43,098 bases of DNA from a virus: the IMG/VR virus record IMGVR_UViG_3300028908_000017, positions 1-43,098 of that record. One strand, 5' to 3'. This document shows, one piece after another, positions 4,915 to 43,098 of the stretch. The notes under the pieces are model-generated. The model was not told where the DNA came from. It saw only the letters and a list, made by a program, of their open reading frames with translations, and did not search any database. Each line of letters opens with the position of its first letter. The stretch's first letter is position 1. Made by a program: the position numbers and the translations under genes.

Positions 4915-6066
4915 CTACATAAGAGTTTCTAAATAGGCCATCTCTTCCAATAAATCCCACATCTCATCCCATTTCTGTGGCACGCTCAGGATTCCTTCGT
5001 GGACACTTTTTCCTTTCATGACCATATCCCGCCGCAACAAGTATTCTGCACTTTTTAATGGATCGACGCGGCGGCCAGTCACGGGATCTTCCACCAATGC
5101 AATTTCTCGTACAATATCAAAGTCTTTGGCTTTGTATTGATATGTTACTTCCACAACACTATCATCAATTGACATAACCATTCCGTGGTCGGGGATAGTG
5201 ACTCCAAATATAGTGAAAGCGGAAGTGTAGCCCGTCTCTGATTCTAATAATACCATTATATCGAAGGGCGGCAACTGGTCTGTTAATAAATACGGTTTGA
5301 ACATATCACCAAAAGAAACATTAGATGATATATCGTGATCAAACCATTCCGGATGAAGTGACATTAACGGGTCATTTTTAGATAAGTTGGCAATTATACT
5401 TCCAGCAATGACGCGGGTACCACCAGTATATCCTTTTGGGCTGGAGCGCCCCAATGTATATACTTCCTGTTTATTCATATGAGATGAGAAAGATACTACT
5501 TTAATGAGGCCGCTAAATGTTTGGACGTGTGGAGTAAGGAATACAATTTGTATGTCCACTCCCGAATAAGCCGGGATGCCGGTCCTTCCGTATCGCTCTG
5601 CTTCTTCTGGAGTAGATGTTGTGAAAATGGCACCTTCGACTGGTTTAAGGCCGCCCTGGACCATAATCCCATAATTCGCTAAAATACTGTGTGTCAATGG
5701 GTCCATTTTCGCAAATTCTGAATTGGATATCTCTAACCATATATTTTGTATATTTGTATAAACTAACTGTACATTCGGGGCGGGCGCTCTATTTGCATTC
5801 TTGCTTTGTAGTTCAATAATTGATGGACCCGTGGCTATAGTTCTAAATAAATCATTTAGGAATCGAGTATTATCTCTTGTTTTAGCCAAATTTATTATTG
5901 ATTTGCCCAAAAATGTATTATCAAAACCCAATACTAACGATACCATATTGGATTTTATTTGCGGAACAATCACATTTGTAAAATTCTGATCAGATACTAG
6001 CGTGTTGTAATTGGCGCGAGATGTTGAATACATCTCATATAATGTATATAATGTAAATTTAGCCAT
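4915..6066 (-). CDS. Tail tube-like virion structural protein (383 aa)
   Basis: A 383-residue protein starting MAKFTLYTLY after an AAGGA site. Residues about 165-250 carry a signature seen in phage tube-type proteins: SGVDIQIVF, then VVSFSSHMNKQEVYTLGR, then SPKGYTGGTRVIAGSIIA. The same order (SGVDI, a short linker, ITREKAPIYVLG, GKRGIAGSL) occurs in the spliced tail tube gene just upstream, so the two are probably distant paralogues. The N-terminal 160 residues are a separate region with no recognised motif. The gene sits between the tube/homing endonuclease region and the giant tail protein, fitting a baseplate hub, tube-initiator or tail-tip component. It is followed after 9 nt by the giant gene, so the two are probably co-translated from one message. 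Confidence 0.65.
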   Translation of the reverse strand: MAKFTLYTLYEMYSTSRANYNTLVSDQNFTNVIVPQIKSNMVSLVLGFDNTFLGKSIINLAKTRDNTRFLNDLFRTIATGPSIIELQSKNANRAPAPNVQLVYTNIQNIWLEISNSEFAKMDPLTHSILANYGIMVQGGLKPVEGAIFTTSTPEEAERYGRTGIPAYSGVDIQIVFLTPHVQTFSGLIKVVSFSSHMNKQEVYTLGRSSPKGYTGGTRVIAGSIIANLSKNDPLMSLHPEWFDHDISSNVSFGDMFKPYLLTDQLPPFDIMVLLESETGYTSAFTIFGVTIPDHGMVMSIDDSVVEVTYQYKAKDFDIVREIALVEDPVTGRRVDPLKSAEYLLRRDMVMKGKSVHEGILSVPQKWDEMWDLLEEMAYLETLM

Positions 6067-6106: not shown

Positions 6107-6820
6107 TTACGTTGTGGGATTAAAATAGTCATGTATCGCTTCATATAACAACTCATCCGGAGTCTTCTCTGTTTGTATTGGTGAATTATCCATTTTATTA
6201 AGACAGGCCGGGCATCTCGAATATTTGCGTGTTAATGTTGAAGGGATGAAATGGCGGCCGCAGTCCACACATATATAATCCTTATTCAATTGTAGTGATG
6301 ATTGTTTAATAACATCCCATAATTGATCTCTAATTTGTGACCATTGCGGAAGGAACTTATATATAGCATATACATCGTAAGACTGTAAATGGATGCGTAA
6401 TGTTTTCTGTCTTTCCGCTGAGTACATATATATCTGTGTACCTAATTTCTTCTGTAGATACAATCCGATTTTTGATAAGAGGTCGCCATTACTCAAAGTC
6501 ATGTTTATGCGGGGGACTTTATCCTTTCTGATTGTCACTGAACCGCGCGCATCCAGCACTCCCACAATAAAATCATCCGTCATATTTAATTTGTAATGTG
6601 GCGGCCATCCATCCAGAATCGCGCCATCTTTCAATACGAATAAAGTATAATCATTGGTATTATTGTCCCACATTTTATATTTATGTGTCTTATATTTTAT
6701 ATTGTATTTATCCAGTATAGTCTTAACTAAGTGGCGGCGGCTTCGTAATATAATAATACTATTTGGTTGCGGGCGCTGCAATGTGTATAGTATTCCGAGT
6801 TCGTACATAGATAATTCCAT
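6107..6820 (-). CDS. Free-standing LAGLIDADG-type homing endonuclease with C-terminal zinc ribbon
   Basis: The frame is open from 6919, but the first 33 codons cover a transcription terminator and a promoter, so I place the start at the ATG at 6820 (237 aa) or, nearly as likely, at 6808. A LAGLIDADG-like helix is visible (FIVGVLDARGSVTI), followed by a typical downstream segment (SNGDLLSKIGLYLQKKLG). Near the C-terminus CVDCG and CPACL, about 20 residues apart, form a four-cysteine zinc ribbon. Enzymes of this family make site-specific double-strand breaks that drive their own copying into empty alleles. This gene is outside any intron, between the tail tube gene and a tail protein, and has its own sigma70-like promoter. 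Its target is unknown; an unoccupied allele of the neighbouring tube gene is an obvious guess. Only one motif copy is seen, so it would act as a dimer. Confidence 0.65.
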   Translation of the reverse strand: MELSMYELGILYTLQRPQPNSIIILRSRRHLVKTILDKYNIKYKTHKYKMWDNNTNDYTLFVLKDGAILDGWPPHYKLNMTDDFIVGVLDARGSVTIRKDKVPRINMTLSNGDLLSKIGLYLQKKLGTQIYMYSAERQKTLRIHLQSYDVYAIYKFLPQWSQIRDQLWDVIKQSSLQLNKDYICVDCGRHFIPSTLTRKYSRCPACLNKMDNSPIQTEKTPDELLYEAIHDYFNPTT

Positions 6821-6829
6821 AATACAAAT

Positions 6830-6858
6830 AATATACAGACAAAATGTCATATTGTCAA
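6830..6858 (-). promoter_or_regulatory. Sigma70-like promoter for the free-standing homing endonuclease
   Basis: A perfect -35 TTGACA (6858-6853) is separated by exactly 17 nt from TATATT (6835-6830). The predicted start lies only a few bases before the ATG at 6820, implying a very short or absent leader. It directly follows the terminator at 6877-6912, so this gene appears insulated from the tail operon. Confidence 0.7.
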
Positions 6859-6876
6859 GCCAATGGCGGCCATCAA

Positions 6877-6912
6877 ATAAAAAAGGCAACCCAACCGAAG
6901 TCGAGTTGCCTT
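6877..6912 (-). terminator. Intrinsic terminator after the tail tube gene
   Basis: Minus-strand stem AAGGCAAC...GTTGCCTT closed by a TTCG loop and followed by a run of T. It starts 25 nt after the tail tube stop codon at 6937. Confidence 0.85.
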
Positions 6913-6936
6913 CATGCATTCAAATATTAAGGTGTC

Positions 6937-9900
6937 CTATGGATTAGTTTCGTTTGTCAACCATTCGCCATAAGCATCCCAAACATCATTAATGCTTGTT
7001 GGAATCTCTGCTTCTCCAGTACCGCTATTACCAGTACCTTTAAAGAAGCCGCGCGTTCCATTATCCACATTAACGACGTCGGAGTCTGGTATACTATCAT
7101 CTGCTGTCCAGGGTATCCATGGAGTCATGGTACGACACACAAAAGTACACTGCTCTTCATTCAGACATGTTATCGTAGGAGCTCTTTATCTCCTACTTCT
7201 TATGGTTTCCCATAAGCTCAGACTATCTCTTCACTCACAACGAGTGCCGGGCGCTCGTGGGTGGATTATTGTTGGGGCTCACCACCTAGTCGTTGCACCT
7301 TCCGTGGAACCTATGCCCGCCACGGCTTGGCTCAGGGTTGCCCTCGACTTTACGTTAGGGTGTTCCCTGAATTCACCCGGTTTTACATCACCCATGAATT
7401 AAGTGATATCATCCACCGATAAACCTCCGCCGGTATTTAAGATCTCAACACCGATTAATGCCTTATAGGCGGATACGCCATATTCATTAGTAGCCACCAA
7501 TGATATATTAAGTGGCATAACTTGCAATCATATCAACTGTTTCCAGTTGGATTGGACTATGTCATCATCCTTATAGGATGGCGGGCGCTCGTGCCGGTCA
7601 TTAAGGACACTCGGTTATTATAACCAGTCCTCCGGTAGTCTCTGCACCTTCCGATGGTGTACCATCGGCTTGGCTCAAAGTTACCCACGCGGGAATCCGC
7701 GCTAGGGCTTCTTTGAATTCACCCGCTTTGCACCTAAAGATTACTCTTTAGGGGGACCTTTATCATTCTCCTGTTTCCTGACTTTCTTCCTTATACAAAT
7801 TGTGTTTAATAAGTATTTGTTTTAGTTCTTGTATAGTTTCTTCCATATCTTTCTTAGGATAGAGTAATACTAATTCAATATTTTGTTCTTTTGCCATTTG
7901 TTTTTTCAATTCCGTCTTTTCATGATAGTTTCTTATGACTTCATCATCAATATTGCCACTCGATGCATATAAACCTAAATACTCAATCCATAATTCTCCC
8001 ACAACAAAATCACAGGTTTTTGGTCGGTTATTACCATTATATCCTGGATACGGTACATCTTTATCATGTTCAATGCCGTGCTCGAACAACCAATTATCGA
8101 TTATGATCTCCGCCTTTGAATGACATATGTGGCCATCCTGTGCCGGTTGATTAAAATACATCCAACCATAGACATGTTTTTTCTTGTAACCACATGCGAC
8201 TCGATAATTATTCCAATTTCCAAATGCTTGAATAATATGATGTTTCTTCCACTTGTAGCCACAGTTAGCTAATTTGAATGTATTTTGTAACGGTTCATGA
8301 CCTGTCTCCGAAATGTATTCATTGAATTGTTGAATCATTTCTTGGCGGTCTTTTTCAGTATAAGTATATCGATAGCTAGTTCTAGGTTTAACTCCACATT
8401 GAACTTGAAACTCATTCCAATTACCAAAATTATCCTTCATAAACCTATCAAATTGATGTAGGGTCCAATTTAGATAATTCTGGAATTCAATGCGGCGGGG
8501 GGAGCGGCCGTTCTCTTCAATATACTTATGAAACTGATCCACCACCCATTGTTTCCGACCAGGTGCTTCAAACCAAGCGCGTGGTTTCAGCCGTGGGTCG
8601 TCGAATTGATTGCCACAAATGGCTCGTTTCTTTTTACGTTTACTCATCATAAACCTCCATAAAAATTAATTTTATGGAGATAATATAACAGTTTAAAATA
8701 GAAAGTCAAGGAAAAATACTAAAAAGTCAGGAGATAAAAATCCATAAATTCTGGGGGGCGTAATGTCGTACCTATAGATGTATGAACAGATGCACTGGAA
8801 TCAAACACTCCCTGCCACTGGTCTGTTGATGGAGAAGTAAATGCTTCCTGATCGTGATTTTTCTTGAAGTACCAGTATTTCTGCTGGTCTGTAGCCGACT
8901 CATTCTGATTACGTATAATCATCCAGAGCGGATCACGGTCAAATAGCATGAATAAGCTATTAATTTGGACTATGTCTTCCGGCCGGCACTCAGTCAATTT
9001 CAAATACCGGCTTGGGCAGCGTATTATGTCGTGGGTGAGTAGATTTATCATATCTACGCTTCACGACATCCGATGTTAAGGCGTTATTATATTGTTTAAG
9101 TAAGTTTAATCGATCATAACTATCTAGCGCGTTCACGGTTTGGGTCATTGATGATGTAAATATATAAGTTAATAGATCCAAGGCCACCGCATCCTTATAA
9201 TTAATCTGATAAGGTTGGGCATAAGATAAACCCACACTTTTAGTTTGGCCCAACACATATATTGGGACTGGTTTGATTTTGGATTTCTTTCTTGGTAGCC
9301 CTGTGGCCATATGAATTTTGGATTGCAATTTATTTAGTAGATTGCGGTTTTGCGAAAACATCCGTAGGAATAAGTGGTCATTTTTATCCATCCAAATGTG
9401 GCCTTGTGCTATAATGAAACCAAGTAATATCTCTGGAAGATATTCCTGTGGCATATCCAATATCGCGCCATCCGTTCCCATATAGTATCCTAATTGAATA
9501 TACTTTTGCCGTTGTTTAAACTTAGTCATAATATGTTCTCCTTGTTCTTTGTGGCCCGTTACCCGTAATAGTCTGCCTTAACAATCGAGTCTCTACAGGG
9601 CACATATATTGTAATATATACCCCTCGGCGTTGCCTGTCAATGCATTGAAGGTTTCACCGATGTAAGCTGCCTTTATCCTCCCCCTTATTCTGTTGAGGG
9701 AGCCTGCGATTCTATTCGCTCACTTATCACTAAGTGTTCAGACTATATCATCATCTCTTGTAGTGAGATGTCGGCCATGTTATAGCGCGCTCACCGCGCT
9801 ATCAACTCATTTAATTGAGTTAGTCGTTGCAGGGCAATATTATAATATTACCCCTCAGTATTACGTCGCTTAAAATTAAGTATTGTTTTAATTATCTTCT

Positions 9901-11374
9901 CTTTATCCTTTAAGTCTTTATTGAATATTATTAATAGGTTGAGCCCCAATTCATGGGATAAGGCGCGCTTGCGCTCCATTCTCTTATTATATACACTCCC
10001 TATTTTCTTTGACCATTTACTAGATTTGCCGTTATTAGTAACTTCTTCAAAACCAGCAAACTCTATATACAAATCATATTCCGGAAGATAAAAGTCGCAG
10101 CGCAATAGTTCATTATCATTGAAAACATCATGTTTGGGATAATGTTTCTGCTGAATATGTTCTATATTGTGTTCAGCTAATAAATTATCAATGACGGCTT
10201 CCCCTATGGAATCACATATATGGCCATCGTTGGCGCGAACTCGCTTGGGGACTTTATTCTTCCGTCCAAATACATAATTAAGCGGAACTCCCGCTAATTC
10301 CATTGCACGTCTCCAACTTCCGAAATGACGCTCAATTGTTGAAATATGAATATTGTAATCGGCGGCCTTGTTAAAGGTATCATATGTTACATACCCATTA
10401 TCCTTATATGCTTTGCGGATTGTATTCAATATGAATGTATCATTAATTCGCCACCGTTTCTTAACAGGAAATCCCGCCGCGCGTAAAGCATTGTTCCATG
10501 AACCAAAGACACGAGATGCTGTGGCTGCTAAATTTCTATCGGGTATCCAATTTCTAAACAAATTGTAATTAATAGTACCACATTCATTGGCGCATTGTTT
10601 CATCAAATCAACAATTAAGGCCTTCCATTCGTAAGTGGTTGCTGATTTTGGAAGTAAGTGTTTATCGGCATCCGGTAAGTTATTCTTATCTAATATCATA
10701 AGTTTGCCTCCTTATGGAAGCGACGCTCCACTGACTAAGGCCGATTTTTCACTATATGTCACCATATAGTGGGGGAATCGCTTTCCCCTTTTACCCAGTA
10801 ACCCAATGGTTTCCCATTGGCCTGGACTGTCTCTTCATCTCCAATCGGAGATGCGCCGTATACAGTCTCTACACTTGCCCGGGAATGAATTCCCTGCTAG
10901 CACGGGATTGCCATCAGCATTACCTGTTAAGGTTTCCCCGTTTTAGCGGCGTTTGCACCACTATGTCACCATAGTGGGGCGCAGTAAATAATCTACGCGA
11001 AAAACTAATTGGATTAGCCTTACCGAGAACATAGATAGGTGCTTTCTCCAGATTACCCAATAGTTTCCTATTGGTCCGGACCATCTCTTCATCTTATTAA
11101 ATAAGATGCGCCGTGTATGGTCTCTACACTTGCCCAACACATACCATATTTGTATGTGTTTGCTAGCTCGGGATTACCATATTCATTTATCTTTAATGAA
11201 CGTAGGCTTCCCCGAATTAGCGGCGTTTTCACTACCATGTTACCATGATAGGGCGCAATATTACTTACGCGTTATAGAATACGAGATCCCGGTAAGAGTT
11301 CCAATAACAACTCCATCGACCATGGCGGTTATGTCAACACCAGACATACTTGAGTAAGCTGCAATTCCTGCCAT
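6937..11374 (-). CDS. Tail tube protein encoded in seven exons split by six group I introns
   Basis: Join, in transcription order: 11374-11267, 11048-10995, 10795-10785, 9711-9697, 8956-8740, 7524-7402, 7152-6937. This gives 744 nt, 247 residues and one stop. The start MAGIAAYSSMSGVDI has a strong AAAGGAGG site 8 nt upstream. The spliced product reads SYSITR-EKAPIYVLGKANPISFSR-GKRG-IAGSL-LFMLFDRDPLW, then PPEFMD-QVMPLNISLVATNEYG, GVEILN, SVDDIT-QCTFVCRTMTPWIPW. This matches the usual order of blocks in phage tail tube proteins (xPIYxxG, KRGIAGSL, FANEYG-like, GVEILNxG, SxDDI). It lies immediately downstream of the tail sheath, the standard sheath-tube order, and would form the inner tube of a contractile tail. 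Exon junctions come from P1/P10 pairings, the terminal G of each intron and the frame. The spliced protein is the same for small shifts at the exon 3/4 junction. The least certain junctions are 1/2 and 6/7. Confidence 0.88.
7153..7401 (-). ncRNA. Group I intron 6 of the tail tube gene (no ORF)
   Basis: 249 nt. P1: exon end AUCACU pairs with internal guide GGUGAU, giving a U•G at the 5' splice site. The P7 strands are seen as GCAACGACUA and AGAUAGUC. P9 is CUUAUGG-GAAA-CCAUAAG, followed by a second hairpin around GUAGGAG...CUCCUAC. The core (GGGUGAAUUC, UGAGCCAAGC, GGAAGGUGCA) closely resembles intron 5, so the two are siblings. The 3' end at GAG|CAG is the only in-frame G that suits the protein, but P10 support is only 2 bp. 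Confidence 0.88.
7763..8650 (-). CDS. Vsr-like (I-Bth0305I-type) homing endonuclease in intron 5
   Basis: 295 aa. The N-terminal half holds at least two copies of a small DNA-binding repeat ending in an FGNWN motif (residues about 75-87 and 143-154), the kind of helical repeat often attached to homing nucleases. The C-terminal third carries the nuclease: GHICHSKAE (E181), D185, a YPGY segment, CDF (D214) and WIEYLGL (E223). This layout fits the family related to very-short-patch repair endonucleases, whose studied member is I-Bth0305I. The start ATGATG follows GGAGG; that ribosome site is buried in a hairpin (8655-8679). The product would spread intron 5 into intronless tube genes. The catalytic residue assignment is by pattern only. 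Confidence 0.78.
   Translation of the reverse strand: MMSKRKKKRAICGNQFDDPRLKPRAWFEAPGRKQWVVDQFHKYIEENGRSPRRIEFQNYLNWTLHQFDRFMKDNFGNWNEFQVQCGVKPRTSYRYTYTEKDRQEMIQQFNEYISETGHEPLQNTFKLANCGYKWKKHHIIQAFGNWNNYRVACGYKKKHVYGWMYFNQPAQDGHICHSKAEIIIDNWLFEHGIEHDKDVPYPGYNGNNRPKTCDFVVGELWIEYLGLYASSGNIDDEVIRNYHEKTELKKQMAKEQNIELVLLYPKKDMEETIQELKQILIKHNLYKEESQETGE
8655..8679 (-). promoter_or_regulatory. Hairpin sequestering the ribosome binding site of the intron 5 endonuclease
   Basis: CTCCATAAAA and TTTTATGGAG form a 10-bp stem with a 5-nt loop; the 3' arm contains most of the GGAGG ribosome site. This would keep endonuclease translation low from the long tail transcript, as is known for the I-TevI gene in the phage T4 td intron. 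Confidence 0.6.
8957..9696 (-). ncRNA. Group I intron 4 of the tail tube gene, with LAGLIDADG endonuclease
   Basis: 740 nt. P1: exon end CUCCCU pairs with GGGGAG, with U•G at the 5' site (9697/9696). The P7 strands are GUAGAGACU near 9590 and GACAUAGUCC near 8975; the endonuclease gene sits between them, in the P8 region. The intron ends AAUUAAUAG, a terminal G, and joining CT|C TTA restores SLLFMLFD in frame. Confidence 0.88.
8990..9529 (-). CDS. LAGLIDADG-type homing endonuclease in intron 4
   Basis: 179 aa, starting MTKFKQRQKY after AAGGAG with 7-nt spacing. A single LAGLIDADG-like helix is present (LLGFIIAQGHIWM, residues about 35-47), with the usual following segment (NRNLLNKLQSKI). The acidic residue normally near the end of the motif is Gln here, so cleavage activity may be weakened or lost. 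At 179 residues with one motif it would be a homodimer if active. The stop at 8990 lies only a few bases before the P7 3' strand and about 35 nt before the 3' splice site, a tight fit showing coevolution with the intron fold. Confidence 0.6.
   Translation of the reverse strand: MTKFKQRQKYIQLGYYMGTDGAILDMPQEYLPEILLGFIIAQGHIWMDKNDHLFLRMFSQNRNLLNKLQSKIHMATGLPRKKSKIKPVPIYVLGQTKSVGLSYAQPYQINYKDAVALDLLTYIFTSSMTQTVNALDSYDRLNLLKQYNNALTSDVVKRRYDKSTHPRHNTLPKPVFEID
9697..9711 (-). other. 15-nt exon 4 of the tail tube gene
   Basis: AATCGCAGGCTCCCT encodes the IAGSL block of the tube protein. Its first six bases (AAUCGC) pair perfectly with GCGAUU in intron 3 (P10), and its last six (CUCCCU) form P1 of intron 4. 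Nearly the whole exon therefore doubles as guide-binding sequence for the two flanking ribozymes. Confidence 0.82.
9712..10784 (-). ncRNA. Group I intron 3 of the tail tube gene, with homing endonuclease
   Basis: 1073 nt. The guide GCGAUUCCCC is a perfect 10-base complement of the spliced junction GGGG|AAUCGC. A P2-like hairpin (CACUAUAUG...CAUAUAGUG) follows, then the endonuclease gene. After it come CUGCAACGACUA (P7 5' strand), a P8 hairpin ACUCAAUUAAAUGAGU, GAUAUAGUCU (P7 3' strand), and P9 CACUUAGUGAUAAGUG. The intron ends ...AAUAG. The 5' exon appears to end in G paired to C, not the usual U•G. Confidence 0.83.
9848..10699 (-). CDS. Vsr-like (I-Bth0305I-type) homing endonuclease in intron 3
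   Basis: 283 aa with AAGGAGG 6 nt before the ATG. Two DNA-binding repeats end in FGSWNNALRAAGF (about 65-78) and FGSWRRAMELAGV (about 126-138). The nuclease part reads GHICDS (D163), E167, D171, HYPKH, then CDFYLPEYDLYIEFAGF (D202, E213). It shares this plan with the intron 5 enzyme but the two are clearly diverged, so they were probably acquired separately. It lies upstream of the P7 strand of intron 3, in the P5/P6 region; the last codons run straight into a GGGUAAUAUU...AAUAUUGCCC hairpin of the intron. Confidence 0.78.
   Translation of the reverse strand: MILDKNNLPDADKHLLPKSATTYEWKALIVDLMKQCANECGTINYNLFRNWIPDRNLAATASRVFGSWNNALRAAGFPVKKRWRINDTFILNTIRKAYKDNGYVTYDTFNKAADYNIHISTIERHFGSWRRAMELAGVPLNYVFGRKNKVPKRVRANDGHICDSIGEAVIDNLLAEHNIEHIQQKHYPKHDVFNDNELLRCDFYLPEYDLYIEFAGFEEVTNNGKSSKWSKKIGSVYNKRMERKRALSHELGLNLLIIFNKDLKDKEKIIKTILNFKRRNTEG
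10785..10795 (-). other. 11-nt exon 3 of the tail tube gene
   Basis: GGTAAAAGGGG encodes GKR plus two bases of the next Gly codon. Its 5' end GGUAAA pairs with UUUACU in intron 2 (P10), and its 3' end GGGG pairs with CCCC in intron 3 (P1). It is the smallest exon in the gene. Confidence 0.8.
10796..10994 (-). ncRNA. Group I intron 2 of the tail tube gene (no ORF)
   Basis: 199 nt, near the small end for a group I intron. P1: GCGU|/GCGC with U•G at the 5' site. P10: UUUACU pairs with the downstream exon GGUAAA. P7 pairs GACUGU with ACAGUC, the P8 hairpin is CAUCUCC...GGAGAUG, and P9 is CCAAUGG-GAAA-CCAUUGG. It is a sibling of intron 1, with compensating changes in P7, P8 and P9. Confidence 0.9.
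11049..11266 (-). ncRNA. Group I intron 1 of the tail tube gene (no ORF)
   Basis: 218 nt. P1: ACGCGU|/GCGC with U•G. P7 pairs GACCAU with AUGGUC, the P8 hairpin is CAUCUUAU...AUAAGAUG, and P9 is CCAAUAG-GAAA-CUAUUGG. The 3' end is placed at CUG|GAG to give SITR-EKAPIY; P10 is weak here. The core sequence is closely related to intron 2. Confidence 0.87.
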
Positions 11375-11600
11375 ATGTCTTACCTCCTTTAAAATATTTG
11401 AATGTCAAAGATCGCTTGTGCTGCCGCTGCACATTTTTATTTGTTTGTATATATGCTATGAACTAGCGCGAATGGTTGACTTTGTTTATTTGAGACACAT
11501 AATTACGCTGCATAACATATATATTATCAATCATTTATCGGGATTTATATTAATAATAGGTAGTATTTTCTTATCATGATTATTATCCTCAATCATATAC

Positions 11601-11723: not shown

Positions 11724-14621
11724 TTACACTAAATCAAGCTGTGTAACAATAGCAATATTCCTAATTTCTTTGGATGTTGTTATATGTAAACTAACCTGTG
11801 TTTTTCCAGATATTTTGTCTGTATCGGATGCGTGTACTGTAACAGCAAATCCCTGGATTCGATCAGGTGCATATACTGATTTGACTTTTTCATCGATAGC
11901 GATTTCCAGTGATTTACGTGTTTTATCATCGTTGGCGCGCCCGAAGAATGGCCGTGCTATTGTTCTAACTGTCTGAATAATATCAAATACAGTCTGAACA
12001 ACAAACTGACGATCAAATTTGGACTCGGCGCGTGCCAGAGTAGGTGCATCACTTATGAGATAAGTACCGTCCACCATAGACTGTGTATACAATGTATATC
12101 TCATTCCATTAATTCTGTTAATCCATTCATTATTCATAATCGGATAGATCAATCTCTGAATTGGGCCAGTATTAATGGTATACATTACCATGGCGGTTTT
12201 CGGATCTTTATTCTGCATTAAACCAGCATGAATAGCCGCGAACTGACCTATATATGGGCGGCCATTCTTAATTCCATTCACAACAAATACTGCATCTCCA
12301 ACCGGAATGATTATATGATAATCATCAAAAGAAGATACAATATTGGCCGGCCTTGTTGGATCAGTTGGTGAAACATTAACAAGACGATCGTACCAGGTTA
12401 CGATCTCTTCCAGTGTTGGATTGTTAATGTCTGCTGCATTTATTGGTTTTGGAGATATGATACCAAAAGCTTCAGAGACATATCTAGATTTTCTGGATAC
12501 GTACTTACTTAATTGTTCCAGGAACCCGGCAGAAACAACTGTGGGTAGCCCGGTTTCATAATCAATACTATCCACAACATCGTCAATATGTACTCCCAAT
12601 GGTACCACATATCTTGCTGGTATATTTTCCTGTCCAATATATCCTTTTTCTAATTCATTATAAAGCGCCATTCCGACGAGACGGCGGCCATCATTTCCAT
12701 TAGTTAATTGTGATGCCTGAACTATTCCCTGAGTAGCATCTATTACTGTTCCAGTCACAGCCGGTAACTCAGGCTGGAATCTTATTAATAATGAAACAAC
12801 AGATCCTTCTTCAGGGTAATTATCAGGATTAATGAACTTAACTTTACCGCCTTTAGCGTCACTAATCATTATATCCACACCCGGAGTATAAGTATGCCGT
12901 GTCTGGTATGTTAATTCGAGTGGATATAACTGAGCGGCACCAAACAATATCTTAGATCCGTATACAAAGTAACTGAATCTATTTCCAATCTGTAATTCAG
13001 ATCGTAAGTTGGCTTCAATATATAATGTTTTATATCTATAATCAATGAAATAGATATCGCCTAACTGAGCACCAGATGTTAATTCAATCTGGCCAGTAGT
13101 AATATCATTTGTATTCCAATGCCAATCGCCGGCCACTGTTTCAGATATAGTAATTTCTGCACCACCAACAAAGCCTGTAGCATCTGCTACATCAATTGAA
13201 GTATCACCACTTGAAGCAGCAGCGCTCAATGTAGTATTAGCTGCGGCTCTGGTTACATTGGTTGGTGTAGCAGCCGCATAACTGTTTGTTAATCCAGCGG
13301 ATACTGTAATTGTATTTGTTCCACTATTAACTGCAGTTACTGTTGCTGTTTCATTATTTGTTCCGTCATCAATAGTAATTGTATCGTTTACCAGGATGCC
13401 GGCCACACCATTAACAACAATATCAGTATCCCCAGCATTTGCATCAGATGCCAAAGTCGTTGTTGCTTCGGCTCTGGATACTGTAGCTGCAGTAGTATAA
13501 TCCTGGGAAAGTGCGGTTCCTAATGTAATAGTATTCCCTGCTACAGATGATACTGTATCATTCTCGGATATGATTGTTGGTCCTTCAACTAAATGAGTAG
13601 TTACGCCGGCTCTGGTTCTATATAATACATAATCTTTAATGGCATCTGCGCCAGTATTATCCCAATTAGTACCAGATTCTCGACAAGCAAGATTCAATAA
13701 AGTTGTACCAACATCCGCAGCCTGTGTATTCAATAATTCTTCTGCTGCTTTTATTGTATAAAAACTAGTAATTGTATTAGTATTAGGATCAGCGTCTTTG
13801 ATTGGAGCGCCGGCCAATGTTGACTCGGCATCTCCTGCTTTAACTGAAGTACTATCTACAATCCCAGTTTTATTAATGGCCTGAATAATATCAATTAACT
13901 TATCACCATAAGACTTACCTGTTGGTGAAGTTAAATCATATTCAGTATCAATTGTCCCATTACTGTCCATATCGGTAATGGTTATATTGACTTCATCAGT
14001 TAATACATTAGCCTGTGCTACATTATACTGGGCAAAGACTGCGTCTGCATTGAGCGCATCAACTAAATCTGTTACATTATAATAAGCCCCAGGAGTATTA
14101 CCAAATACATCTAACTGATAAGATAAAACGGTGCCATCCGGCAAAGTAACTGTCATAACAGCAGGGTCACCATTCGAATCACCATCTATCTTTACTTCAG
14201 TTGAGTTTTCACCATCAATTTTAGATATGATGGTCATACATGCTGATATTCCGGTGGGCGCCAAATCTGGATTGGCCGGATCATTAGCATGATTTCTGTT
14301 TTCGTACAGATCCAATTTTGGTTTCCGTACGTCACCTATACGAACACCATAAATAAAAGCGCTCGGGACCATTGACTTGATTTCCCGATAACCTTTAACA
14401 AGCATGGCTTCGCCATATCCATCATCCACATAATCTCCAAATATATCACTAAGTGTTTCATCTTCCATTAATGTTGGAGTATAAAGTGGACCTTTGGTTG
14501 CTGTTCCAATTAATATAATTGCATTTGGGTTGGGTGTAGTTGCTGGTCTTGGAGCATCTTCATCCTTTATATAACTAGTTGTTTTTGGAACATATGGATA
14601 CAAATCTGTAAAATCTGCCAT
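11724..14621 (-). CDS. Tail sheath protein with inserted beta-domain repeats
   Basis: 965 aa, starting MADFTDLYPYVPKTTSYIKD after AGGAGG. The N-terminus (AIILIGTATKGPLYTPTLM) and the C-terminal domain (SVYAPDRIQGFAVTVHASD, QVSLHITTSKEIRNI) are typical of contractile sheath subunits, which polymerise around the tube and contract at injection. The protein is longer than common sheaths. Residues about 350-505 contain one partial and two full copies of a small beta-rich module (TTLASDANAGDTDIVVN; TTLSAAASSGDTSIDVADAT), which also occurs in the capsid protein at 19664-21007. These copies probably form surface domains on the sheath. The gene has its own terminator, and the tube gene follows. Family identity is secure; the role of the inserted modules is inference. 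Confidence 0.93.
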   Translation of the reverse strand: MADFTDLYPYVPKTTSYIKDEDAPRPATTPNPNAIILIGTATKGPLYTPTLMEDETLSDIFGDYVDDGYGEAMLVKGYREIKSMVPSAFIYGVRIGDVRKPKLDLYENRNHANDPANPDLAPTGISACMTIISKIDGENSTEVKIDGDSNGDPAVMTVTLPDGTVLSYQLDVFGNTPGAYYNVTDLVDALNADAVFAQYNVAQANVLTDEVNITITDMDSNGTIDTEYDLTSPTGKSYGDKLIDIIQAINKTGIVDSTSVKAGDAESTLAGAPIKDADPNTNTITSFYTIKAAEELLNTQAADVGTTLLNLACRESGTNWDNTGADAIKDYVLYRTRAGVTTHLVEGPTIISENDTVSSVAGNTITLGTALSQDYTTAATVSRAEATTTLASDANAGDTDIVVNGVAGILVNDTITIDDGTNNETATVTAVNSGTNTITVSAGLTNSYAAATPTNVTRAAANTTLSAAASSGDTSIDVADATGFVGGAEITISETVAGDWHWNTNDITTGQIELTSGAQLGDIYFIDYRYKTLYIEANLRSELQIGNRFSYFVYGSKILFGAAQLYPLELTYQTRHTYTPGVDIMISDAKGGKVKFINPDNYPEEGSVVSLLIRFQPELPAVTGTVIDATQGIVQASQLTNGNDGRRLVGMALYNELEKGYIGQENIPARYVVPLGVHIDDVVDSIDYETGLPTVVSAGFLEQLSKYVSRKSRYVSEAFGIISPKPINAADINNPTLEEIVTWYDRLVNVSPTDPTRPANIVSSFDDYHIIIPVGDAVFVVNGIKNGRPYIGQFAAIHAGLMQNKDPKTAMVMYTINTGPIQRLIYPIMNNEWINRINGMRYTLYTQSMVDGTYLISDAPTLARAESKFDRQFVVQTVFDIIQTVRTIARPFFGRANDDKTRKSLEIAIDEKVKSVYAPDRIQGFAVTVHASDTDKISGKTQVSLHITTSKEIRNIAIVTQLDLV

Positions 14622-14669: not shown

Positions 14670-15347
14670 TCACGTTTTATCATACAAATCATATTCGCCA
14701 CCTATTGTCAAATCGGTGCCGTCTGGAGCCACCAATTTATTAACATCCTGTACAATGATTTCCAAATTATCAATAACCCGATCTCTAACCCATAAGTGCT
14801 CTTCTGTTATCAAATCATACATAACAGATCTATTATGGTAGCCGTTCTTCATTGTTCCCATACTAACGCCGCGGGAATTATATGTTATGTTTTCCAAACC
14901 TACTGTAATTAGCGCGTTTCTATACGCATCCATAAATAATTCAAAATCACAAGTGGCGGCTTCCACTTCTGTTGCGGTAGGCGCAAATACATCGAATCGA
15001 ACCACTGTTTTATATCTTCGTAAGTGGAGTCGAAGCATCTCGCCTGTTTCCGTGTTTCTCCAAATGGACGCATCCTTGATTAAGCCAACTTGAGTCTTGG
15101 AACCGGCCGGCGCATTATCCCTATCAATTGTTTTGTATGTTATTATTATCGGTGGAAATTGAGTTGGACGATCGGTTTCATTAATAATGAAATCTGGATA
15201 GGCCGCTTCATAATGAATCTTCTTGTTGGGGTCCGGTTGCAGATTGTTTTCCAAATCAATCAATTTACCAATAATATAGTAAAATCCTTGTAATGTAATA
15301 TTAGTTTGTTTATGATTTGCTATTGTATTTACTAATTCCCATGCCAT
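14670..15347 (-). CDS. Neck or tail-completion protein (225 aa)
   Basis: Starts MAWELVNTIA in a TAATG overlap with the stop of the preceding gene, with CAGGAG upstream, so the two are translationally coupled. The middle portion (FPPIIITYKTIDRD, LRLHLRRYKTVVRFDVFA, AATCDFELFMDAYRNAL) looks like an alpha/beta protein of the tail terminator or completion type. Such proteins are usually encoded directly before the sheath, as here. No diagnostic catalytic motif is present and none is expected. The assignment rests mainly on gene order and is moderate. One copy of the recurrent junction motif (14652-14665) lies just past its stop. Confidence 0.55.
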   Translation of the reverse strand: MAWELVNTIANHKQTNITLQGFYYIIGKLIDLENNLQPDPNKKIHYEAAYPDFIINETDRPTQFPPIIITYKTIDRDNAPAGSKTQVGLIKDASIWRNTETGEMLRLHLRRYKTVVRFDVFAPTATEVEAATCDFELFMDAYRNALITVGLENITYNSRGVSMGTMKNGYHNRSVMYDLITEEHLWVRDRVIDNLEIIVQDVNKLVAPDGTDLTIGGEYDLYDKT

Positions 15348-15622
15348 TAGTGGTTACTCCTGTATTCTCTGGTTCGTTGTTTTAATTGCCGTATGTTCTC
15401 CATGAAAACGGCCGGCACTACCTTGATTGAGTTATTAGAAAACTTCATAACCAATTCGGCGCGCTCTGGTGTATCCTTGAATACAAAATGGAATAAGTCC
15501 GATGATCCTTTCGTTGATGTAATCGGTTCCAAATCCACCAATTCCAGGCCTTCATGAATGAGAGTAGCGGCCAATACAATTGATGATGTCTTATAATATC
15601 TATCTTTATTATTCTGTTTCAT
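15347..15622 (-). CDS. Small protein resembling the DUF5659 family (91 aa)
   Basis: 91 residues: YKTSSIVLAATLIHEGLELV, then DLFHFVFKDT, then VVPAVFMENIRQLKQRTRE. The order (YxTSSxxLAAxLxxxGxEL, a hydrophobic FxF strand, a final helix with a VxPxxFxxxIRxLK-type motif) matches my recollection of the DUF5659 family, small proteins common in Gram-positive phages. Its function is unknown. It overlaps the next gene by one base (TAATG). Being between connector genes and the tail completion protein, it may be a minor virion or assembly factor. Confidence 0.6.
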   Translation of the reverse strand: MKQNNKDRYYKTSSIVLAATLIHEGLELVDLEPITSTKGSSDLFHFVFKDTPERAELVMKFSNNSIKVVPAVFMENIRQLKQRTREYRSNH

Positions 15623-41016: not shown

Positions 41017-43098
41017 TTAACTACATGCGGAATAGCCGCAATTCAAACATGTTTTACAACCACTCTCATTCCTGAGCGATGGCGCGCCGCACTCTGGACA
41101 AATTTCAAATTGACCAGACTGACCGGACTTGCCTTTATTCATAGTATTCATTTTGATGGATACCACATCTTTATCTGAAACGCCTTTTATGTGATTTCGA
41201 ATAATATGACCAATTCCAGCAATGATGGACCCAACATATTTGCCGGGCATCCAAAATCCTTCCCCATTCACGAAAGTATTCTCCATCTCATTCAATATAA
41301 AATCATAGTTGCGCTCCTTTCGGAACAATGCAGACAACAATCTAGAGATGAATGAATAGATTGGTTGTTGATTACTTCTGGTGTTAATGAATACTTCAAA
41401 TGGGCGGTGTTCATTACTAAAATCGTTTATTGTCACATAATAACTAAATTTATCGGATGGTGATTTGAGTTTATATGTTTTACCAGCCAGCACCGGCTCC
41501 CGTTTCAACTTCAAAGTAGGATCTGGTTGTTCTACTGGTGCCTGCTTTGGTGCTTCTTTCGGAGCGGGCGCTTCCAATACAGACTGAACTTTCTCATTTG
41601 GGCGATATGTCGTTACACCCTTAATACCTAACTTCCAAGCCTGCATATACACATCCTTAAAATCATCAAAACTATAATCAGATGGAACATTTATTGTTTT
41701 ACTCAAACTATTATCTACATAATATTGAATTATCGACATAACACTCAAGTGGTCTTGGATTGTTAAATTATTTGTATTTCTCCAATAATCTGGGGTTGGT
41801 GTATCGCCGAAGCGCGTTATCCATTCGAGATAGGCATAATCATACACCGTTTCTTCTCTTATTTCAGTATCCGTCTGTTTGATCTTTCTAACATACGAAT
41901 CTGAAAAAATAGGCTCCAGCCCGCTAGAAACATTATTAGCAAAAATGCTTCCAGTTCCGACCGGAGCCACAGTGAGGAGAAATGCGTTTCTAATGCCTGA
42001 TTTTAATATTCCTTCTTTAATATCATTTGGTAATCGTTTAACGAAGCGGCCTTCCACATATGCTTTCCTATGTTCTTGTTCAGATACAACAGGACAGGCG
42101 CCTTTCTCGACTGCCAAATCAACGGATGCACTATATGCTGTATCTCTAATTGCTTTCATAACCTTTTTCAAGAAATCTAATGTTTCCTGATGGTCGCCAT
42201 ATGGTAGTTTCATCATAACAAATGTATCAGCGAGCCCTGTTATTCCTAAACCAATGCGGCGCTCAGATTTGGATCTCTCCGCATATTTGTCTGTCGGGAA
42301 ATCAGTAACATCAATAACATCATCAAGAAAACGTACGGCGGTGGCCACATCTTGCTTTAAACCATCATAATCAAATTCCGGGTTGTCCCCAAACGCGCCA
42401 CGTACATACTGTGTCAAATTCATACTACCTAAATTACAAGCACCATTATACCCTAGGAATTGTTCACCACAACCACGCTGCACATATCCTTCAGTTACCC
42501 ATGTATCTGAATCTTCACAATATAAATCATAAACTGTAGCTTCCTTGTGTGGTTGAATGTTAATAATGGTCACAAATGATTCAGGAACTACATCATACAC
42601 GACATTTTGTATATAATCCTTAATTTTATCTTTATCTTCATGTTCAATAATTAATTTAGTCACCGACAATAAATTTGGACCATCCACCACTAAATTATAT
42701 TGCACATTAACAGATGCAAATGCACTATACTCTTGTTTAATTTCTGGAGTAATCCCAAAATATAAGAATATCAATCTAATATGGCGTAATATTTCGTAAG
42801 ACGCGCTTTCAATCTGTAAATAACTACTTATCAATTGTAATTTATTAATATATAAATCTCCATGCAATTGAATTAATTCATTCAATACCCCCAACATAAA
42901 ATCAACAGATTTGCCATATAACTTATCAATCACGGATGCATCAAATACGTTATTGGCAACAAAATCTTTTCCTTGTCGAAACTCATCCATATTTACATTA
43001 TTGAGCTTTCCATAATCAAATGATTTATTTTTGATTAATACATCATCTCCTGTACCTAATTGATCAACTCTAACATTCTTAATTGTATGGCGAAGTCT
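41017..43098 (-). CDS. nrdJ: Class II (adenosylcobalamin-dependent) ribonucleotide reductase NrdJ, C-terminal part preceded by an intein (partial at window end)
   Basis: The frame is open through base 43098, so the gene begins outside. From 42471 the reductase reads CGEQFLGYNGACNLGSMNL, the active-site Cys and the CNLGS block, then RRIGLGITGLADTFVMM, NVSSGLEPIFSDSYVRKI and WKLGIKGVTTYRPN, as in NrdJ proteins. The end CPECGAPS...CLNCGYSACS is the zinc-binding and redox cysteine tail. The C-terminal extein is 484 residues. It reduces ribonucleotides for phage DNA synthesis. The roughly 209 visible codons before the active-site Cys belong to an intein (42472-43098). The ATG at 42990 is internal to the intein and not a start. 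Confidence 0.88.
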   Translation of the reverse strand, partial: RLRHTIKNVRVDQLGTGDDVLIKNKSFDYGKLNNVNMDEFRQGKDFVANNVFDASVIDKLYGKSVDFMLGVLNELIQLHGDLYINKLQLISSYLQIESASYEILRHIRLIFLYFGITPEIKQEYSAFASVNVQYNLVVDGPNLLSVTKLIIEHEDKDKIKDYIQNVVYDVVPESFVTIINIQPHKEATVYDLYCEDSDTWVTEGYVQRGCGEQFLGYNGACNLGSMNLTQYVRGAFGDNPEFDYDGLKQDVATAVRFLDDVIDVTDFPTDKYAERSKSERRIGLGITGLADTFVMMKLPYGDHQETLDFLKKVMKAIRDTAYSASVDLAVEKGACPVVSEQEHRKAYVEGRFVKRLPNDIKEGILKSGIRNAFLLTVAPVGTGSIFANNVSSGLEPIFSDSYVRKIKQTDTEIREETVYDYAYLEWITRFGDTPTPDYWRNTNNLTIQDHLSVMSIIQYYVDNSLSKTINVPSDYSFDDFKDVYMQAWKLGIKGVTTYRPNEKVQSVLEAPAPKEAPKQAPVEQPDPTLKLKREPVLAGKTYKLKSPSDKFSYYVTINDFSNEHRPFEVFINTRSNQQPIYSFISRLLSALFRKERNYDFILNEMENTFVNGEGFWMPGKYVGSIIAGIGHIIRNHIKGVSDKDVVSIKMNTMNKGKSGQSGQFEICPECGAPSLRNESGCKTCLNCGYSACS
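42472..43098 (-). mobile_element. Intein in NrdJ (C-terminal ~209 residues visible), non-canonical C-terminus
   Basis: VYDLYCEDSDTWVTEGYVQ matches the intein block F pattern (VYDL.......FV..G.V.). Upstream, SVDFMLGVLNEL and YEILRHIRLIFLYFGI fit a LAGLIDADG endonuclease domain whose acidic motif residues seem lost. It sits exactly before the reductase active-site Cys, which would be the +1 residue. The last two residues are Arg-Gly, where nearly all inteins have His-Asn. Splicing by Asn cyclisation would thus be impossible as read. Confidence 0.72.

Follow-up and report, generated by a model that had tools for sequence, protein, structure and literature searches.

A phage tail tube gene apparently divided by six group I introns

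That phage genes can contain group I introns is already known, and a few such genes carry several. In Staphylococcus phage Twort, orf142 is the tail tube gene, and exon skipping is known for it (PMC11878797). Three introns interrupt this Twort gene, which lies directly after the sheath gene. In the crAss-like Zeta phage OLRF01000054, the capsid gene is split into five fragments by four interruptions, with group I intron domains between them (PMC7886860). Polymerase and terminase genes of the Bastillevirinae have up to three group I introns, and when nine genes were tested by experiment, eight proved to be spliced; that study found introns only in core genes of replication and packaging, and none in tail genes (PMC11878797). 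The terL gene of Jug phages comes in two to three fragments (PMC12363816). Within the open-access literature, no phage gene with more than four group I introns was found described, four being the highest count (PMC7886860).

The locus described here resembles Twort in having multiple group I introns in a tube gene after the sheath gene, but with six introns where Twort has three. Like OLRF01000054, it is a single phage structural gene in several fragments associated with group I domains; there, however, the gene encodes the capsid, and near-identical sister introns are not described in the part of that source available (PMC7886860). It shares multi-intron phage genes with the Bastillevirinae, which in contrast have at most three introns per gene and none in tail genes. 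The number and density of introns in the present gene appear new. Some fungal mitochondrial genes carry more introns.

The window, by which we mean the full stretch of DNA analyzed, is an entire IMG/VR record of 43,098 bases. Among its open reading frames, the pieces of the tube gene appear as open stretches in differing frames on the minus strand, from 11374 down to 6937, and resolve into seven exons and six introns (I1 to I6; Table 1). An earlier note on this DNA had given the same strand, ends and exon and intron numbers, all of which stand; its totals (744 nt of exon, 247 residues and 3694 nt of intron) were 9 nt off, as the joined exons come to 753 nt, or 250 codons plus the stop, and the introns to 3685 nt. 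The joins were placed by three criteria: a G as the last intron base, P1/P10 pairing, and gapless alignment with uninterrupted homologues at each junction. Every exon is open and in frame, all invariant residues are retained, and the exact closing of the frame after splicing, also asserted by the note, is borne out by a clean 250-residue join. All six junctions are gapless against two relatives with intron-free genes (L005 and L006) and against phages KLEB27-3 and MTATph1. The L005 and L006 proteins are 46-48% identical to the spliced protein over nearly its full length, and that of a third relative, L007, is 61% identical. In alignment with uninterrupted relatives, all six joins fall within the most conserved protein blocks. 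This anatomy, together with the ribozyme cores, splice-site pairing and intron-free homologues observed, supports the note's central claim of one tail tube gene broken by six group I introns, and we hold it very likely that a single tail tube gene of a large contractile-tailed phage carries six such introns and is spliced to a 250-codon message.

Table 1. Features of the tail tube locus, in window coordinates. RF00028 is the Rfam model; ORF, open reading frame. Exon sequences read in joining order.
Feature	Position	Strand	Size	Description	Support
Exon 1	11267..11374	-	108 nt	MAGIAAYSSMSGVDITAMVDGVVIGTLTGISYSITR (MAGIAAYSS...SYSITR)	Open from ATG 11374; gapless alignment with L005, L006, L007
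Exon 2	10995..11048	-	54 nt	EKAPIYVLGKANPISFSR	Join and homologue alignment
Exon 3	10785..10795	-	11 nt	Micro-exon GGTAAAAGGGG, GKR(G)	Restores invariant SFSRGKRGIAGS block
Exon 4	9697..9711	-	15 nt	Micro-exon AATCGCAGGCTCCCT, IAGS(L)	Join and homologue alignment
Exon 5	8740..8956	-	217 nt	LFMLFDRDPLW...PPEFMD	Join and homologue alignment
Exon 6	7402..7524	-	123 nt	QVMPLNISLVATNEYG...VDDIT	Join and homologue alignment
Exon 7	6937..7161	-	225 nt	NEEQCTFVCRTMTPW...NETNP; includes stop	Join and homologue alignment
Intron 1 (I1)	11049..11266	-	218 nt	Group I, no ORF	P1 GCGU/GCGC with U.G; RF00028 81.1 bits, E 3.5e-20
Intron 2 (I2)	10796..10994	-	199 nt	Group I, no ORF	P1 GCGU/GCGC, P10 6 bp; RF00028 40.8 bits, E 4.1e-8, below cut-off
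Intron 3 (I3)	9712..10784	-	1073 nt	Group I, ORF in P5 loop	P2-P9 pair; RF00028 27.1 bits, E 5.2e-4, below cut-off
Intron 4 (I4)	8957..9696	-	740 nt	Group I by comparison	P1 CUCCCU/GGGGAG with U.G, P10 7 bp; no Rfam match
Intron 5 (I5)	7525..8739	-	1215 nt	Group I, ORF in P1 loop	P1 stem 11 pairs, helices pair; RF00028 98.7 bits, E 1.9e-25
Intron 6 (I6)	7162..7401	-	240 nt	Group I, no ORF, no P2	P1 AUAUCACU/GGUGAUGU with U.G; RF00028 83.4 bits, E 7e-21
I3 ORF	9848..10699	-	283 aa	Homing-endonuclease type	Pfam HNH_repeat 51.8 bits (cut-off 26); PHROG 559 HNH endonuclease 1.4e-12
I4 ORF	8990..9529	-	179 aa	Between P7 5' strand and P3'	No family match
I5 ORF	7763..8650	-	295 aa	Homing-endonuclease type	Pfam HNH_repeat 35.1 bits (cut-off 26)
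Promoter-like site before I5 ORF	8709-8682	-		TTGACT-16-TATATT	Promoter scan, consensus match only
Terminator-like hairpin after tube gene	6882..6913	-		14 pairs, then T-rich	Consensus match only
Tail sheath gene	11724..14621	-	965 aa	Directly upstream of tube gene	PHROG 16991 tail sheath 4.4e-22
Intact second tube-family gene	4915..6066	-	383 aa	Downstream of tube gene, also in relatives	PHROG 9206 1.3e-22

The order of sheath gene and then tube gene is the same in KLEB27-3, MTATph1 and ME3, and the spliced protein has 42.7% identity to the KLEB27-3 protein annotated as tail tube, in an alignment that covers 73% of the query. It also matches PHROG 9206 (3.6e-35), a family labeled "major head protein". 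That label is suspect, since three things point to a tail tube: the position after the sheath gene, the way KLEB27-3 is annotated, and what the L005 protein matches in fold. It is probably a mislabel, spreading to annotations such as that of MTATph1. The fold matches come from a model of the intact L005 protein (pLDDT 64), whose top PDB hits are phage 812 neck-tail, Hcp and PVC tube chains, and they are weak (best E 0.019, prob 0.98). No sequence relative of the tube protein was found in the PDB. The sheath protein as a query matched only the L007 contig, and dN/dS was uninformative, with dS saturated.

The earlier note would have counted another intact tube gene in the genome, together with a lack of spliced reads, against its reading, and an intact gene of the same family does lie downstream (Table 1). 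A paralogue follows the uninterrupted tube gene, in the same order, in L005, L006 and nearly all relatives. As a spare tube gene it was rejected by this synteny, because nearly all relatives with an intact tube gene carry both; it is a separate second gene of the cassette and not a replacement. The contig is a fragment, however, and the possibility of a third copy in the part of the genome that it lacks remains.

Could the interrupted gene be a decaying pseudogene with mostly dead introns, the tail being made by an intact tube gene outside the contig or by the paralogue? We regard this as unlikely. At 43 kb, against 177-235 kb for the complete genomes of relatives, the contig is probably just part of a larger genome, the intact paralogue is there, and the I4 ORF looks degenerate. 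Against this, the exons have open frames and the full set of invariant residues, compensatory changes maintain the ribozyme cores, as described below, and the paralogue is a distinct gene.

The reading of a functional six-intron gene also rests on the introns themselves. When the helices were written out and each pair was checked, the core elements P3, P4, P6, P7 and P8 were present in order in all six introns; every helix of I1 pairs, and P6 of I6 has two of three pairs as written. In a covariance-model search of the kind that the note had suggested, run with RF00028 over 6900-11450, three introns (I5, I6 and I1) scored above cut-off, two (I2 and I3) scored below it, and I4 gave no match. Rfam by itself thus undercounts the introns here. 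Elsewhere in the 43-kb window there was no RF00028 match at E up to 1. Fold z-scores against shuffled sequence were -6.5 for I1, -5.0 for I2 and -3.6 for I6.

Comparison between related introns also supports the pairing. I1 and I2 are sister introns with 70% identity, and of 43 pairs compared between them 10 are double-compensated, one is changed on one side and none is broken. At exactly the I4 position L007 also has an intron, 82% identical over 106 nt of the 3' part. Between the two, P1 changes from CUCCCU/GGGGAG to UUCGCU/GGUGAA and P3 from GGCAGC/GCUGCC to GAUAGC/GCUAUC, both double-compensated; one pair is broken in P4 of the L007 homologue. To judge from these paired substitutions, the ribozyme cores are maintained by compensatory change.

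At the splice site, P1 carries U.G in five of the introns (I1, I2, I4, I5 and I6) and G-C in I3. Despite this, the I3 splice site is well placed, because P1 (GGGG/CCCC) and P10 (GCGAUU/AAUCGC) form one contiguous guide of ten pairs. G is the last base of all six introns as joined, although it was also a criterion for placing the joins. An unbiased pairing scan recovered P1/P10 near the intron start for I1 to I4 and P1 for I6; P1 of I5 was placed by hand, and the scan ranked chance pairings in this long intron above it.

There could also be fewer than six group I introns, if I4 were another type of insertion, or if exon 3 had been misread and a single composite element comprised both I2 and I3. 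This reading could appeal to the Rfam results for I4, I2 and I3, to an exon of just 11 nt, and to the absence of U.G in I3. We give it slightly less weight than the pseudogene: the homologue of I4 at the same site shows compensation in P1 and P3, and P1 (6 bp) and P10 (7 bp) of I4 are contiguous, while exon 3 supplies exactly the invariant GKRG, and a relative, L107, has a 9-nt exon, GGAAAGCGT, between two introns at the same place.

That relative was reached through an intron ORF. With the I3 ORF as a query, contigs from two separate metagenomes were found (L098 and L099), and a larger stretch, L107, was read from contig IMGVR_UViG_3300026197_000006. Its tube gene spans 11.1 kb and has 11 exons (111, 13, 5, 27, 9, 234, 28, 43, 20, 16 and 220 nt) and 10 introns. 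Joined, the exons give a clean 241-residue tube protein that aligns cleanly with other tube proteins. For most of the sites, P1/P10 pairing close to where the intron begins gives support; for example, the pairings of intron 2 (7+7 bp) and intron 3 (5+5 bp) bracket the 5-nt exon. The earlier note had called six introns in one gene exceptional; the number does exceed the counts found described, yet it is not the maximum. The L107 gene is like that of the window in identity and gene order, in an insertion site common exactly to both (between SFSR and GKR), and in having an intron homologous to I3. It differs in its ten introns, in its exons down to 5 nt, and in that introns 2 to 10 each have an ORF matching an endonuclease-type Pfam family above cut-off. 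That the window merely joins pieces of different phages is barely credible, even for a single metagenomic record: the pieces lie on a single strand, follow one another in the right order, keep the frame and have splice pairings that match, the related ten-intron gene occurs in two separate metagenomes (L099 holds all 12 of the L107 junction strings falling in its fetched stretch), and the I4 site is shared with L007.

As joined, L107 introns 6 and 7 resemble I3 in that G-C takes the place of U.G at the 5' splice site and P1/P10 are contiguous, which is unusual for group I. Intron 9 of L107 contains, beside its endonuclease ORF, a 115-aa ORF (15264-15611) that by eye resembles a small tube-family protein and has no clear family match (best PHROG E 0.026).

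Other relatives were less interrupted. L007 has two introns, the second between VA and QNEYG (RF00028 89.7 bits). In L126 there are at least two interruptions, upstream of YTMGS and after SFSRGK (ends not exact), and in L120 one, before an exon with ERQATFVAR (RF00028 52.9 bits). Most other relatives read have an uninterrupted tube gene; they come from a listing of the best 80 of 443, which favors intact genes, and no prevalence can be estimated. Moreover, a C-terminal tube query is blind to shredded genes, as the search peptides span splice sites. Outside the tube gene, RF00028 matches were seen in the record of L016 (G006) at 56528-57775 and in phage ME3 (KU935715) at 69.7, 138.6-139.3 and 223.2 kb.

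Three genes are fully resolved, those of the window, L007 and L107. Their 18 insertions occupy 16 different sites, every one of them in a conserved block and within residues 36-63 or 135-176. Two sites are shared: residue 54 (I2 and L107 intron 4) and residue 63 (I4 and the L007 intron). Local conservation at insertion sites is 0.85 versus 0.59 at random sites, a value reached in none of 20,000 draws; the statistic is indicative only, the sites not being independent draws. Related introns also occur at different sites. I3 is 59.6% identical to L107 intron 5 over 933 nt, with insertion points 2 nt apart, and L107 intron 6 combines an I5-like ORF region with an I6-like core (69% over 225 nt). 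On sequence grounds, this cross-site kinship would fit homing together with shuffling of cores and ORFs. I1 and I2 have the exon ends ACGCGU and UCGCGU. Since these sister copies share the CGCGU end and the guide GCGC, the most likely origin of one is from the other, within this gene, via reverse splicing or recombination, the route being an inference. The tube family showed no relation detectable by hhalign to the available Twort sequence (exon 1 only), and because of this the invasion in Twort was probably independent of that in this clade.

By their Pfam matches the I3 and I5 ORFs are predicted to be of endonuclease type; on homing activity itself there are no data. The I5 ORF as a query found no relative. 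The I4 ORF had no family match in searches including Pfam and PHROG. Its C-terminal DVVKRRYDKSTHPRHNTL also terminates the 354-aa ORF of the same-site L007 intron, which matches PHROG 4645 endonuclease (1.7e-27), and the I4 ORF is probably a shortened LAGLIDADG endonuclease like it. A promoter-like TTGACW-N16/17-TATATT occurs within I4, upstream of its ORF, as well as before the I5 ORF, and similar sites precede both L007 intron ORFs by eye; all are consensus matches only.

The tube gene with its terminator-like hairpin is immediately followed by a LAGLIDADG-like ORF (6107-6919, minus strand; weak E 0.02-0.03) with a promoter-like TTGACA-17-TATATT at 6858-6830. It is probably a free-standing endonuclease with a start near 6820.

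In the model that we propose for the six-intron gene, the late transcript would go through six rounds of ribozyme splicing, each started by guanosine and completed in two steps, so that exons of 108, 54, 11, 15, 217, 123 and 225 nt end up as the 250-codon message of the tube subunit. The introns would descend from mobile elements, with endonuclease-type ORFs kept in I3 and I5, shortened in I4 and absent from I1, I2 and I6, and the tube gene would be a repeated intron target in this phage group, up to ten in one relative. Splicing, including guanosine-dependent self-splicing, translation of the spliced message and the route of intron spread are all inferred in the absence of RNA data, as is the dependence of tail and virion assembly on six splicing reactions. 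As the guide and the exon end are common to I1 and I2, skipping of exon 2, which would leave the frame intact, is plausible.

A wider proposal, on which we remain undecided and which we put forward only tentatively, is that the tube gene has become a runaway group I landing site in this lineage, with at least 16 sites in about 250 codons, up to ten occupied at once and exons down to 5 nt, spread by homing between genomes and by copying within the gene (I1/I2). No other protein gene known outside organelles would then be as dense in introns, and assembly of the tail would hinge on as many as ten ribozyme reactions for each message; exon 2 might also be skipped, in frame and under regulation, via the I1/I2 guide. 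If the inferred splicing holds, no tail is built unless the introns splice precisely. This raises the questions of how several ribozyme reactions per message can be afforded for the most repeated tail subunit, why the tube gene was repeatedly invaded in this clade and in Twort, and how introns reach new sites within the gene. How introns spread can be tested directly on the I1/I2 sister pair and on the homologous pair of I3 and L107 intron 5. Gene finders would overlook the tube gene in such genomes.

Apart from the tube locus, the window encodes a B12-dependent ribonucleotide reductase (41017-42990, minus strand), the contig ending before the start of the gene. Its first ~172 residues, just before CGEQ, resemble the C-terminal half of an intein; residues 109-370 match an intein-bearing ribonucleotide reductase model, with LAGLIDADG_3 at E 0.012.
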